Origin: Burkholderiales bacterium
GTDB lineage: Bacteria; Pseudomonadota; Gammaproteobacteria; Burkholderiales; SG8-41
Assembly: GCA_919902235.1 (NCBI GenBank)
Contig: CAKKQX010000190.1
Location: 1 to 39,261 of the forward strand
Reading direction: 5' to 3'
Length of the DNA stretch: 39,261 nucleotides
Shown here: positions 27 to 30,251 of the stretch, piece after piece
How the letters are laid out: each line of letters opens with the position of its first letter
Numbering within the stretch: the stretch's first letter is position 1
The notes under the pieces: generated by a model
What the model was told of the DNA's origin: nothing
Databases searched by the model: none
Seen by the model: only the letters and a program-made list of their open reading frames with translations
Program-made: the position numbers and the translations under genes

Positions 27-818
27 TCAGGTCGTTGCAAGCACGCTGCCGAACGCGCCAGCCTCAAGCAGGCTGGACATCAGTTGCGCGAGGTCAGCAT
101 CGGGCTGCGCTTCGAGCGCGGCCTGCGCCGCCGCGGCGAGCGTGCCGCCTGCCGCGCAGGCATCGAGAAGAGCGCAGCCCGCGGCGTCGAGCGCGATCCA
201 TTCGACAGCATCGCGCGCACGGGTGAGCAGTGCGCCCTCGGGCCGCCAGTCAATATCGCCGTCGGGCGTGCCTTCGCTGCGATTGCGCGACCAGATGGTG
301 TAAATCGGCGCATCGGCAAACCACGCCCAGCGCGCTGCCGGATGCGGCTGCAGCACGGCACCGCCGAGCGCTTCGGGTGCCAGCTGCGCGATGGTGTCGG
401 CGGCGAGTGCCGTTGCATCGGGCGCGGTGTGCGCCTCAGTCCACAGGTAGTCAAGTCGTGCGACGTCCGGCAGATAGGTCAGTTCGGCGGCGGGCTCGAA
501 GCGCGACAGAAAATCCGCGAATGCCGCGCCGTAGCGCAGCAGCGTCGGCTCGGCGGGAAGATGCTCGCGCACGTAGACCGCAGCGGCGGCACGAAACCAT
601 TCCTCGCCGACCAGCCGTTCCACCGCGGGGAAATTGGCTTGCAGCGCGTCGATGCAGCCCTTCATGACGGTGTTGCGGTATACGGCAAAGGCGGGTTGCG
701 CGCCGAGCGCGGCGATTTCCGTGGCAGGCGCGGTTTCAGTCGACCGCAGCGCCTGCGCAAACGCGTCCTGGAAGCGGGTGAGAGCGCCGGGCATGGACGT
801 ATTCAGCGTTGTATTCAT
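27..818 (-). CDS. bufC: DUF2063 / BufC (HvfC)-like partner protein of an MNIO enzyme
   Basis: 263 aa ORF; N-terminus 'LTRFQDAFAQAL...FAVYRNTVMKGCIDALQANFPAVERLVGEEWFRAAAAVYV' is typical DUF2063; start codon overlaps the stop of the DUF692 gene. Confidence 0.85.
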   Translation of the reverse strand: MNTTLNTSMPGALTRFQDAFAQALRSTETAPATEIAALGAQPAFAVYRNTVMKGCIDALQANFPAVERLVGEEWFRAAAAVYVREHLPAEPTLLRYGAAFADFLSRFEPAAELTYLPDVARLDYLWTEAHTAPDATALAADTIAQLAPEALGGAVLQPHPAARWAWFADAPIYTIWSRNRSEGTPDGDIDWRPEGALLTRARDAVEWIALDAAGCALLDACAAGGTLAAAAQAALEAQPDADLAQLMSSLLEAGAFGSVLATT

Positions 819-1657
819 TACGCGGCCTGGGCAAGTGGCGCGCGCAGCACGGCGTCGGCGCGCTGACGCTCGGCGAAGAGCGTGGCAAAGTCGGGCAGAT
901 TGTCGTCGCGCTCGATCAGCGCGGGGCGTGCGCCGATGCGCGCGATCAGCCGTTCATAGAGCGCCCACACTTCGGGCGCGACCGGCGCATCGTGCGAATC
1001 GACAAGCAGAGCCTCGCCCAGGCTTGGGTCCGGCGCGTGGCCGGCGAGATGAACTTCCATCACCGGTTCACCGGGAAAGGCATCGATATAAGCGGTGGCC
1101 GAAAAGCCGAGGTTGCGCGCGCTCACGTACACATTGTTGACGTCGAGCAATAGGCCGCAGCCGGTGTGGCGTGCGAGTTCAGCAAGAAAATCAATTTCGC
1201 CCCACGCGTGGTCGGCCATCTGCAAATAGTGCGAGGGGTTCTCGATTGCGATGCGCCGCTGCAGCACATCCTGCGTGCGCTGGATATTGCCGGCGATGCG
1301 CGCCAGCGCTTCATCGGTGCGCGGGAAGGGCAGCAGATCCGGGTGATAAGCGCCGCGCCAGGTAGACCACGCCAGATGCTCTGAAACCAGCGCCGGTTCG
1401 ATACGGCGCGCAAGATCGGCCAGGCGTTTGAGATGTGCCGCATCGGGCTCGGCATCGGCCGCGAGCGACATCGCCACGCCGTGCAGCGAAATTGCATGAC
1501 GCGCGCGGATCGCCTCCAGCCACGCCAGACGCGGTCCGCCGTCTATCATGTAATTTTCGGGGTGCACCTCGAACCACAGCCCGTCCGCCGGGCAGGCAAA
1601 CGCCGCATCGTAATGCTGCGGCTTCAGGCCGAGCCCGGCGGTGAGGGCTGTGGTCAT
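818..1657 (-). CDS. bufB: DUF692 / MNIO family multinuclear iron oxidase (BufB-like)
   Basis: 279 aa; 'AGLGLKPQHYDAAF...FEVHPENYM' and 'GCGLLLDVNNVYVSARNLGF...EVHLAGHAPD' are DUF692 hallmarks. Confidence 0.9.
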   Translation of the reverse strand: MTTALTAGLGLKPQHYDAAFACPADGLWFEVHPENYMIDGGPRLAWLEAIRARHAISLHGVAMSLAADAEPDAAHLKRLADLARRIEPALVSEHLAWSTWRGAYHPDLLPFPRTDEALARIAGNIQRTQDVLQRRIAIENPSHYLQMADHAWGEIDFLAELARHTGCGLLLDVNNVYVSARNLGFSATAYIDAFPGEPVMEVHLAGHAPDPSLGEALLVDSHDAPVAPEVWALYERLIARIGARPALIERDDNLPDFATLFAERQRADAVLRAPLAQAA

Positions 1658-1686
1658 GGTTCGAGGCGCTTTCCTGAAGGCGCATT

Positions 1687-1971
1687 CTAGCTCTTGATTT
1701 CCTTGAGCGAACCCATGCTGGTCGGTGTCTTCATCGTGGCGCAGGTGCCCTTGGCAACATACTTCCAGGCATTGCCCTGATAATCCACTTTCGAAGTGCC
1801 GGCGCAGGTGGTGCCGGGGCCGGCGGCGCAGTCGTTCTTGCCGGCGAGCGAAACGCCGTAGCAGCGCTCTTTGTCGCCCTTGATCGAGGCGCCCTTGTCC
1901 TGCGCAAGAGCGGCGCCCGAGACGAGCGCTGCGAGCGTGAGGGCGGTAACGGCGAGGGTGCGGGATTTCAT
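1687..1971 (-). CDS. bufA: DUF2282 / BufA1-type bufferin precursor peptide
   Basis: Start re-assigned to 1971 ([24 protein letters not shown] signal peptide, AAGGAG RBS); 94 aa with four Cys in '[44 protein letters not shown]'. Confidence 0.88.
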
Positions 1972-2057
1972 GGGGTCAGACTCCTTGTAATATGAGGGTT
2001 GGATAATTTCGCCGAGCGCCCGAACCGAAATGGGCCTGAAGCGCGCGGACTTAAGGT

Positions 2058-2085
2058 AATACGTAGCAAACTGGCGATTGGTTAC
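2058..2085 (-). promoter_or_regulatory. Predicted ECF (SigF-like) promoter of bufABC
   Basis: Minus strand GTAACC (2085-2080), 16-nt spacer, CGTATT (2063-2058). Confidence 0.7.
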
Positions 2086-2105
2086 AGAGTCGTGCACAAT
2101 TTGTT

Positions 2106-2128
2106 CCGGATGAAATTTTTTCATCCGG
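2106..2128. promoter_or_regulatory. Perfect palindrome between the divergent promoters, candidate operator
   Basis: CCGGATGAAA-TTT-TTTCATCCGG, 10-bp arms, 3-nt centre. Confidence 0.5.
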
Positions 2129-2130
2129 CT

Positions 2131-2158
2131 GTAACCGAATGCTCCCCCGCAACGAATA
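2131..2158 (+). promoter_or_regulatory. Predicted autoregulatory ECF (SigF-like) promoter of the sigma/anti-sigma operon
   Basis: GTAACC (2131-2136), 16-nt spacer, CGAATA (2153-2158). Confidence 0.72.
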
Positions 2159-2173
2159 AGGAAAGAAGGCTGC

Positions 2174-2728
2174 TTGAGCGTGAGTGAAGACCGATTGCGG
2201 GATCTGCTGGTGCGCGGGCTTGCCGGCGACAATGCGGCCTACCATGTATTCCTGAAGGAACTGAGTGCGCATTTGCGCGCTTTTCTCAGAGGACGGCTCA
2301 CCCGCTTGCCGGACGACGTGGAGGATCTGGTGCAGGAAACGCTGCTCGCCGTGCATAACCAGCGCCACACCTACGATGCCGGCCAGCCGCTGACCGCGTG
2401 GATACACGCGATTGCGCGTTACAAGCTGGTCGACCTGCTGCGCCGGCGCGCGGGACGCGATGCGCTCAACATTCCGCTGGACGACGAGCGCGAATTGTTC
2501 GCCCGCTCGGATACCGAGGCAGCCGACGCAAAACGCGATCTTGCGAAGCTGCTCGATCAGTTGCCCGACCGGCAGCGCCTGCCGATCGTGCACATGAAGC
2601 TCGCGGGCTTGTCGGTGATCGAGACTGCGCGCGCCACCGGCATGTCGGAGGCGGCAGTCAAAGTAGGCGTGCACCGCGGCCTCAAGGCACTCGCGGCGCT
2701 GATACGGAGAAGCGATGAAGACCGATGA
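2174..2728 (+). CDS. ECF RNA polymerase sigma factor, SigF-like
   Basis: 184 aa; '[49 protein letters not shown]' sigma2 and HTH sigma4 '[33 protein letters not shown]'; TTG start at 2174 or GTG at 2180. Confidence 0.88.
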
Positions 2729-3356
2729 ACTGATTTCCATGCTGGCGAACGGGGCGCAAGTCGTCGAACCGCACGCGCTGCGGCGCCGTTACGCGATCGC
2801 GCTGGGCTGGGGCGGATTCGGCGCGACGCTGTTGATGGCGATCATGCTCGGCGTGCGGCCGGATCTGGCCGAAGCTGCGTGGCTGCCGATGTTCTGGGTC
2901 AAGCTCGCGCTTCCGGTCGCGCTGCTCGCCACCGCGCTGCTCGCGGTGCTGCGGCTGTCGCGTCCGGGCGTGCGGCTGGGGCGCGTGCCTTCGGCGCTCG
3001 CTGCGCCGGTGCTGGCGATATGGCTGCTGGCGGGCGTCGCGCTGCTCGGCGCTGCGCCGGGCGCGCGCAGTCAATTGATCTTCGGCGAGACCTGGGCGTC
3101 GTGCCCGTTCAATATCGCGCTGCTGTCGATGCCGGTGTTCATTGCACTGATGTGGGCGATGCGCGGACTGGCGCCGACGCGGCCCGCGCTGTCCGGCGCC
3201 GCGGCAGGGCTGCTCTCCGGGGCCATGGGTGCGGCGGTGTATACCTTGCACTGTCCGGAAATGGATGCCCCCTTCCTCGCCATCTGGTATCTGCTCGGCA
3301 TGCTGATTCCGACCACACTCGGCGCGCTGCTCGGTCCGCGCCTGCTGCGCTGGTAG
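2715..3356 (+). CDS. DUF1109 / NrsF-like membrane anti-sigma factor
   Basis: 213 aa, about six hydrophobic segments; overlaps the sigma gene by 14 bp; exactly two Cys ('ASCPFN', 'LHCPEMDA'). Confidence 0.85.
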
Positions 3357-3653: not shown

Positions 3654-4124
3654 TTAATAGCGATAGATCCGGTTGCCGTCGACGCGCACCCTGTCACCGG
3701 TGCGCAAATCGGTAATGTCGTCCTGGTGCAAGGTGTGATACGAGCCGTTGTCGTAGCGGATGGTGACACGGAAAGTCTCGTCGGCGCGGCGCGTCCGATT
3801 TTCAATCTGGTTACCCGCGACCGCGCCGCCGGCAGCACCGATGACGGTTGCCGCGGTCCGACCGCTGCCGCCCCCGATCTGGCTGCCGATCAGTCCGCCG
3901 ACGATGCCGCCAATCACGGTGCCGGCGATATTGCTTCCCCCGTCTTTCCGGATGACCTCGATCTTCTCCACAACGCCGACGTTGTATCTTGCGGGCGCCG
4001 GCGACGGATAGGTCTGGGAGCGGGAAGGTTGCGACTCGTAGTAAGGCTGCGGCTCGGATGTCGCGCAGGCGGCTGACAGCGTAGCGGCGGCAGTGACTGC
4101 TGAAATCAAGCGGATGTTTTTCAT
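3654..4124 (-). CDS. Glycine-zipper 2TM domain lipoprotein (SlyB-like)
   Basis: Start re-assigned to 4124 (MKNIRLISAVTAAATLSAACATS lipobox); 'SNIAGTVIGGIVGGLIGSQIGGGSGRTAATVIGAAGGAVAGNQIE'. Confidence 0.8.
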   Translation of the reverse strand: MKNIRLISAVTAAATLSAACATSEPQPYYESQPSRSQTYPSPAPARYNVGVVEKIEVIRKDGGSNIAGTVIGGIVGGLIGSQIGGGSGRTAATVIGAAGGAVAGNQIENRTRRADETFRVTIRYDNGSYHTLHQDDITDLRTGDRVRVDGNRIYRY

Positions 4125-4260
4125 TTTAGTCCTCCTTGCAACAACGGAAAGGTTGATGCTTTCCCAACGATGGCGCCTGACCACGCTGTCCGTGGCGCTT
4201 CAGCAGCCCGCCCCACGGGCACGCGCAATCCTCCACCTGCGGTTGATATCGGCGCACTTA

Positions 4261-4602
4261 TCAGTTGGCCATGATTTGAATGTTGTTCTGGACGGAGACG
4301 ACACCGTCCACGCTGCGTGCAAGCGAAACGGCCTTGTCGGCTTCCGCCTGGCTCTTGGCTTTCCCGCTCAGCGTCACCATGCCCTTGTCGTCGGTATCGA
4401 CTTTGATGCGCAGCGCGCTGACCTGTTTATCCTTGGCCATCGCAGCCTTGATCCTGGTGGTGATGATCGAATCCTTGACGACCGTCTTCGGGGAAGCGCG
4501 TTCAGGACTGGAACTATTGGGGCTCATCTCGGCGGTATAGCCTGCGACGGGCAACGACAATGCACCGATCAATATTGCGCTGGTCGTAAGTTTGGTATGC
4601 AT
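4261..4602 (-). CDS. BON domain periplasmic protein
   Basis: 113 aa; signal peptide and 'DSIITTRIKAAMAKDKQVSALRIKVDTDDKGMVTLSGKAKSQAEADKAVSLARSVDGVVSVQNNI'. Confidence 0.9.
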   Translation of the reverse strand: MHTKLTTSAILIGALSLPVAGYTAEMSPNSSSPERASPKTVVKDSIITTRIKAAMAKDKQVSALRIKVDTDDKGMVTLSGKAKSQAEADKAVSLARSVDGVVSVQNNIQIMAN

Positions 4603-29042: not shown

Positions 29043-30251
29043 TCATGTCCTGCGGCGATGCGCGACAACCAGGCAGTAAAGTGCGATGGCGGACGGGATG
29101 GCGAGCGATGCGAATGCCAGGCCGTAATCGCGGGTGAGCGCATAGACGTTGGCAAGCACAATCGGTCCGGTGAACTTGCCGACGTTGGTGATGACCAGCG
29201 ATCCGCTGATGGCGAGGCTTACCTGGCCCTGCGGCGCGAGCCGGCCGACTTCGGCGAGAATGGCGCCGGGCCAGCAGCCGGAGACGCCGCCCAGAACGGC
29301 GAACAACACATAGACTGCGGGCAGCGGCAGCGCCGGCGACAATGCCAGCGCTGCAAGCGAAGCGAGCATCATCACGGCCGCCGTCCACGCCAGCACGCAC
29401 GCAGTCTCATGCACGCGGTCGACCAGCCATCCCACGAACACCCGCGCCACTGCGCTGCTCACCTGCACCACGGTGAGCACGGTACCGGCGAGCAGCAGGC
29501 TCATGCCGAGCGCTTCCACGCATGCCACCACCGCGAAAGCCGCCGTGCAGAATTGCACCCAGGAGAAACAGCAGCCGGCGATGGCCACCAGCCGCAGGGA
29601 ATGATGTCCCCAGATTGCGCTGGCGCCGGCGAGCGGATTGGCGGTGATGGCAGGGCTGGCGGGATCGCGGTCGTCGTCCCATTTGCGGCGGCCGCGCTGC
29701 ATCAGCACGATGACGCCGAAAATCAGGACGGCACTCAGCATGACCGCCCAGCGCCACCCGGCAAGCACCGTTATCGCGGGCGCGGCGAGCGCTGCGACGA
29801 CGCCGCCCAGCGGAATGCCAACCTGGTGCAGGGAAAACACGAAGTTGCGCCTGGCTGCGGGCGTGAAGCGCACCAGCAGGTATGAGGCCGAGGGCGTGAG
29901 CGCGCCGTAACCCACGCCGACCACCAGCGAACCCATGATCAGGAACGGCGTCCACGGCACCAGCATGATCAGCATGCCGATGCCGACCATGCCGTGGCCG
30001 AACTGGTTGGTGCGGCATGCGCCCAGCCTGCGGCTGGTGTTGCCGAGCAGGGTCAGCGATACCACCATGCCCAGGCTGACCAGGCTGATCTGGTAGCCGA
30101 TGAGCGAAGGGTCGAAGCCGTAGTCGCGTGCCACGGCGGGCGCTACTGCGGGCAGCACCAGCGTCGACATGGAAGCCATGGTGTGGCCTGCCAGCAGCGC
30201 CAGCACCAGGAATGTCGGTGAGACGCCCAGGTTACCGTCGTTGTGTGGCAT
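29043..30251 (-). CDS. MFS transporter
   Basis: About 12 TM segments; start re-assigned to 30251, overlapping the upstream SDR stop. Confidence 0.88.
   Translation of the reverse strand: MPHNDGNLGVSPTFLVLALLAGHTMASMSTLVLPAVAPAVARDYGFDPSLIGYQISLVSLGMVVSLTLLGNTSRRLGACRTNQFGHGMVGIGMLIMLVPWTPFLIMGSLVVGVGYGALTPSASYLLVRFTPAARRNFVFSLHQVGIPLGGVVAALAAPAITVLAGWRWAVMLSAVLIFGVIVLMQRGRRKWDDDRDPASPAITANPLAGASAIWGHHSLRLVAIAGCCFSWVQFCTAAFAVVACVEALGMSLLLAGTVLTVVQVSSAVARVFVGWLVDRVHETACVLAWTAAVMMLASLAALALSPALPLPAVYVLFAVLGGVSGCWPGAILAEVGRLAPQGQVSLAISGSLVITNVGKFTGPIVLANVYALTRDYGLAFASLAIPSAIALYCLVVAHRRRT

Follow-up and report, generated by a model that had tools for sequence, protein, structure and literature searches.

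The DNA between a predicted bufferin operon and an ECF sigma factor gene raises the question of whether both transcription units are read from divergent promoters of one type, so that the operon and its neighboring sigma factor would be regulated together. The window analyzed here is a whole contig of 39,261 nucleotides; since it starts just past bufC, it may leave out a DoxX gene. The genes that flank the region of interest are as follows.

27 to 818, minus strand: bufC, DUF2063 RiPP maturation partner (PF09836, 4.6e-25)
818 to 1657, minus strand: bufB, MNIO bufferin maturase (PF05114, 1.3e-95; NF050167 MNIO_BufB, over the NCBIfam cut-off)
1687 to 1971, minus strand: bufA, secreted DUF2282 (Buf1 bufferin) precursor of 94 aa (PF10048, E = 3.5e-25)
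2174 to 2728, plus strand: ECF sigma factor, SigF/ECF16-like, with a TTG start (PF04542 and PF08281)
2715 to 3356, plus strand: NrsF anti-sigma factor (PF06532, 1.1e-73)

A secreted DUF2282 precursor adjoined by MNIO and DUF2063 genes is the arrangement of a Buf1 cluster, and NrsF and sigma genes are regular companions of such clusters (PMC12452194). The bufA product carries cysteines at positions 37, 48, 56, and 77 behind a signal peptide that was judged by eye. On the other side, the sigma factor is made up of region 2 and region 4 only and is followed by a DUF1109/NrsF anti-sigma gene, as in ECF16. The only cysteines of NrsF, C130 and C180, fall where the two conserved residues of the family are found (about 129/131 and 179/181) and correspond to C131 and C181 of the Caulobacter crescentus protein. 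Downstream of the anti-sigma gene, on the minus strand, lie genes for a glycine-zipper outer-membrane-type protein (3654 to 4184) and a BON-domain protein (4261 to 4602); no exact ECF16 motif was found near either of them.

A probable divergent promoter pair between bufA and the sigma factor gene

A preliminary description of this DNA had proposed matched divergent promoters between positions 2058 and 2158, and a motif search of the window recovered the pair exactly there, on both strands. It sits between bufA, of the operon bufA-MNIO-DUF2063, and the ECF sigma gene, with the NrsF anti-sigma gene next in line. The minus strand reads GTAACC-AATCGCCAGTTTGCTA-CGTA from 2085 to 2060, the plus strand reads GTAACC-GAATGCTCCCCCGCAA-CGAA from 2131 to 2156, and 45 nt separate the two -35 boxes.

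2080 to 2085, minus strand: bufABC promoter, -35 GTAACC with CT before it; the opposite-strand motif in relatives
2060 to 2063, minus strand: -10 CGTA of the bufABC promoter, after a 16-nt spacer; then TT
2057 to 2059, minus strand: n-TA extension (TTA), the mark of target-type promoters (31/33 vs 3/33, see below)
2113 to 2122, plus strand: A/T tract AAATTTTTTC, a T run 10 to 15 nt upstream of the sigma-side -35
2131 to 2136, plus strand: sigma operon's own promoter, -35 GTAACC with GCT before it; conserved in relatives
2153 to 2156, plus strand: sigma operon's own promoter, -10 CGAA after a 16-nt spacer; TA next, not nTA

Across the 39,261 nt, GTAACC-N15..17-CGWA matches three times where shuffles give 0.19; the third match, at 29907 with a spacer of 15, was taken as chance. 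The ECF16 promoter, (T/C)GTAACC-N16-CGAA before the sigma gene and its targets, is present on both sides, except that the -10 of the target is CGTA. This is a minority form, as CGAA is found in about 89% of a nonredundant set of relatives and CGTA in a few. In the same set a T-rich tract lies 10 to 15 nt upstream of both -35s at a similar distance, which is where UP elements are found, and we infer that these tracts may have an UP-element-like function. An Rfam scan of positions 1600 to 3000 found no RNA family, and a search for a terminator between the bufABC and sigma operons returned none.

Relation to known SigF and ECF16 systems

The SigF-type consensus named in the preliminary description is the correct one, since C. 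crescentus sigma-F recognizes GTAACC-N16-CGAA (PMC3511200). There, both sigF and the divergent DUF2282/DUF692 operon need this sequence, as shown by 5'RACE together with lacZ fusions and a mutant in sigF (PMC3511200); the entire sigF regulon is copper-induced, and a sigF mutant is copper-sensitive (PMC8224329). The ECF16 promoters of both bcrS and bcrXQP in Brucella have been mapped by 5'RACE, with autoregulation (PMC8315932), and ecfF of Bradyrhizobium behaves alike, including autoregulation (PMC3420878). The window resembles the SigF-NrsF locus of C. crescentus (CC3253-CC3252 with CC3254-CC3257) in its adjacent gene families, in the GTAACC-N16-CGAA-type promoter before both operons, and in the two conserved NrsF cysteines. 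It differs in being betaproteobacterial, in the CGTA of its bufA promoter, and in showing no DoxX gene before the contig ends after bufC. Brucella BcrS/AbcS (ECF16) is alike in having such promoters in front of both its sigma and its target operon; the target there, however, is bcrXQP, for HOCl resistance, and not a bufferin operon.

Taken together, gene content and promoter motifs make it very probable that the window holds a SigF/NrsF (ECF16) divergon in which the buf operon and the sigma gene are co-regulated. As judged from the homologues, the ECF sigma factor would be kept at the membrane by NrsF until NrsF receives a periplasmic signal (copper or another thiol-reactive metal, or else reactive chlorine or oxygen) and lets the sigma factor go. 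RNA polymerase bearing the sigma factor would then transcribe from both promoters of the divergent pair, which are of one type. GTAACC-N16-CGTA-TTA would drive bufABC leftwards, giving a copper-buffering, MNIO-modified peptide (both thiooxazole modification and copper binding are predicted), and GTAACC-N16-CGAA-TAA would drive sigma-nrsF rightwards, forming an autoregulatory loop. Before stress, basal sigma factor and NrsF would probably come from a third, housekeeping promoter (-10 at 2095 to 2100, -35 near 2071 to 2076) that overlaps the buf promoter. The co-regulation and autoregulation that the preliminary description predicted are well supported by this comparison, while the positive autoregulation may be modest, because that of sigF in C. 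crescentus is reported as not strong (PMC3511200). The same divergon system has already been worked out in Caulobacter and Brucella and is met here in a new organism, so that a proven alphaproteobacterial circuit is extended, on strong comparative evidence, to betaproteobacterial bufferin operons. What the sequence comparisons would add is a difference between target and self promoters, a possible third promoter, and a prediction for Cupriavidus.

Conservation of the pair and its spacer

Eighty loci with close relatives of the sigma factor were fetched, and 80 more from NrsF hits in the order and the phylum. The 250-nt stretches upstream of the first 80 related sigma genes contain, in all, 77 copies of GTAACC-N16-CGAA on the strand of the sigma gene and 60 on the other. 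A spacer of 17 occurs once and spacers of 12 to 15 and 18 to 21 never, so that 137 of the 138 motif occurrences have 16 nt. Of 84 sigma loci, 65 have a divergent pair no more than 100 nt apart, and a search blind to genes found the strict divergent pattern in 6 of 754 genomes, with 0 for the reversed control. Because spacer, pairing, and gene-blind search agree, we regard it as settled, at the level of comparative sequence analysis, that the half-motifs are kept together as one conserved unit; a chance origin of the pair is refuted by this conservation. Among the relatives the -35 is better described as CTGTAACC, and a weaker GC(C) follows four bases beyond it.

The divergent partner is not always bufA. 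In L033, L034, L035, and L040 (and L053, L055, L057, and L060) its place is taken by a small secreted protein in which FPSA(A) motifs recur, and bufA stands under its own CGAAnTA promoter further on; L039/L056 is likely a relative of this group. Among loci that lack bufA, partners read by eye are a cytochrome b-type membrane protein (L065, L068, L072, L073, and L078), MsrB-like (methionine sulfoxide reductase) and DUF1223-like proteins (L069 and L082), and a repeat EGKCG/oxazolin-like protein (L081). All of these stand behind the same promoter and, on this reading by eye, would form a thiol/methionine-oxidation and metal regulon. On the conjugative plasmid pMR68 of Pseudomonas sp. K-62 (L229), an ECF sigma/DUF1109 pair adjoins mercury-transport-type genes; GTAACC-N15..19-CGWA was not found in the stretch examined there.

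Target and self promoters differ after the -10

After the -10, target-side promoters continue with n-TA (CGAA-n-TA), whereas most promoters of the sigma gene itself continue with T (CGAA-T). In a nonredundant, mainly betaproteobacterial set, nTA follows the -10 in 31 of 33 target promoters vs 3 of 33 sigma-type promoters (Fisher p = 8e-13). The window obeys this rule, with CGTA-TTA on the buf side and CGAA-TAA on the sigma side, and the extension recurs at targets away from the sigma gene, such as a second bufA promoter and one before a DUF1223-like gene. Regulon members can be sought more sharply with the target motif CTGTAACC-N16-CGAAnTA.

The preliminary description had also suggested defining the whole regulon by a genome search, and this did not succeed. 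In the 3.35-Mb, 87%-complete assembly, the loose GTAACC-N15..17-CGWA is found at chance level (34 matches vs 37 for the reversed control), and because its matches occur genome-wide at chance, GTAACC-N16-CGWA alone cannot define the regulon. TGTAAC-N17-CGWA occurs at five places in the 3.35 Mb, two of which are the window pair; the other three, which overlap long ORFs or lie at their edges, resemble chance matches. Searches of the assembly with the loose pattern, with the T extension, and with the nTA extension brought up nothing above the reversed control besides the window pair, and the further target candidates that were inspected overlap ORFs. Unlike in C. crescentus, a second convincing target site was thus not found in this 87%-complete assembly, which, like the less common CGTA of the buf-side -10, weighs against the divergon reading.

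A possible third promoter

Many of the relatives carry a further element, GGCANAAT, between the two -35s.

2095 to 2100, plus strand: conserved element GTGCACAAT, possible housekeeping -10 CACAAT; [GT]GCANAAT in relatives
2071 to 2076, plus strand: possible housekeeping -35 CTGGCG, a candidate assignment; TGGC is linked to loci with CANAAT

The CTGGCG element overlaps the spacer of the buf promoter. In 56 nonredundant gaps, [GT]GCANAAT is present on the plus strand in 21 and on the minus strand in 1 (0.8 expected from shuffles), and its third base is variable, as in a -10 box. GGCANAAT also precedes sigma genes whose usual site for the divergent motif is empty (L097, L112, L114, and L116), which suggests that it is part of the sigma operon; L114 and L116 read TCGACA-N17-CACAAT by eye. 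TGGC stands about 18 nt upstream in 12 of 20 loci with the element vs 3 of 35 (p = 7e-5, in lineages that are not independent). A strict sigma-70 scan (TTGACA/TATAAT-like hexamers, 16- to 18-nt spacer) calls no promoter here, as CTGGCG-N18-CACAAT fails it. Because the CACAAT element is not called, we put forward as a working hypothesis that GGCANAAT is probably a housekeeping promoter for the basal supply of sigma factor and NrsF. This agrees with the reported RpoD dependence of rpoQ-rsqA in Cupriavidus metallidurans (PMC10304878) and with the basal expression of bcrS that occurs in Brucella without BcrS (PMC8315932).

Alternatively, GGCANAAT may be a UP element or an activator site for the buf promoter and no housekeeping -10 for the sigma gene, a reading that is possible but the less likely of the two. 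It would account for the distance of 8 to 10 nt to the buf-side -35, which is kept in nearly all loci whatever the length of the gap, and for the silence of the strict sigma-70 scan. It sits poorly with the strand bias of 21 to 1, with the retention of the element in the four loci that lack the usual divergent target motif, with the hexamers and spacing of L114 and L116, and with a variable third base. The G/C flank of GGCANAAT is conserved, unlike in UP elements, and the RpoD dependence of rpoQ-rsqA (PMC10304878) again points to a housekeeping promoter.

If GGCANAAT is a housekeeping promoter, the region could hold three interlocking promoters, a view that we offer tentatively and consider doubtful as a whole. 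The housekeeping promoter would lie over the -35 and spacer of the buf promoter, making the two polymerases mutually exclusive, and target and self promoters would be built to differ in strength. In resting cells, occupation of the basal promoter would keep buf silent; sigma factor freed by stress would open the buf promoter and displace the basal one, and expression of the sigma gene would pass to its own promoter. CGAAnTA at the target and CGAATA at the sigma gene would be tuned to unequal strength.

Operator and phasing readings

The gap between the two -35s also contains an inverted repeat.

2106 to 2128, no strand: inverted repeat CCGGATGAAA/TTTCATCCGG, perfect 10-3-10; lineage-specific and without conservation

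An operator at this palindrome, CCGGATGAAATTTTTTCATCCGG (2106 to 2128), that controls both promoters is improbable. The repeat is perfect and lies midway between the two -35s, but stems elsewhere are no longer than those of shuffles (combined p ~0.6, window left out) and the A/T core alone is conserved; as the repeat is not conserved across loci, the palindromic operator was rejected. We give next to no credence to the idea that the matching hexamers are chance or the shared operator of an unrelated regulator, for which the chance-level count of GTAACC-N15..17-CGWA genome-wide and the inverted repeat made by the two -35s (CTGTAACC / GGTTACAG) might speak, since among spacers of 12 to 21 the only exception to 16 is a single 17, the motif also stands singly before other targets and before sigma genes without a divergent partner, and experiments have mapped it as a promoter in C. 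crescentus and Brucella, while Bradyrhizobium has a close variant of it.

Gaps between the -35s of the fetched loci, mostly from Betaproteobacteria, cluster near 33, 44, 56, and 65 nt, with none at 38 to 39 or 47 to 51, and nonredundant sets of 15 to 26 give a Rayleigh p of ~0.003 to 0.006 near a period of 10.5 to 11. Helical phasing was discarded, as six genomes from the blind search disobey it with gaps of 32, 36, 46, 48, 55, and 59 (the genome with the gap of 32 was already in the first set). The clustering is possibly a clade effect.

A prediction for the gig operon of Cupriavidus metallidurans

The gigPABT/rpoQ-rsqA locus of C. metallidurans has the same layout, with a bufferin-type operon and the genes of an ECF sigma/anti-sigma pair pointing away from each other. 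In strain CH34 (L224, 1180 to 1300, NC_007974.2) this divergon carries GTAACC-N16-CGAA on both strands with a 34-nt gap. The 2023 paper on this system identified no gig promoter and found no evidence of control by RpoQ, though such control was called likely; rpoQ-rsqA was reported as RpoD-dependent (PMC10304878). Against such control, deletion of rpoQ was reported to raise gig expression and not to abolish it (PMC10304878), so other sigma factors may conceal the dependence in some hosts. If true, the arrangement of three interlocking promoters could explain both why rpoQ seems RpoD-driven and why gig seems independent of RpoQ. The promoter pair offers a testable answer to the question of RpoQ control of the gold/copper-induced gig operon.
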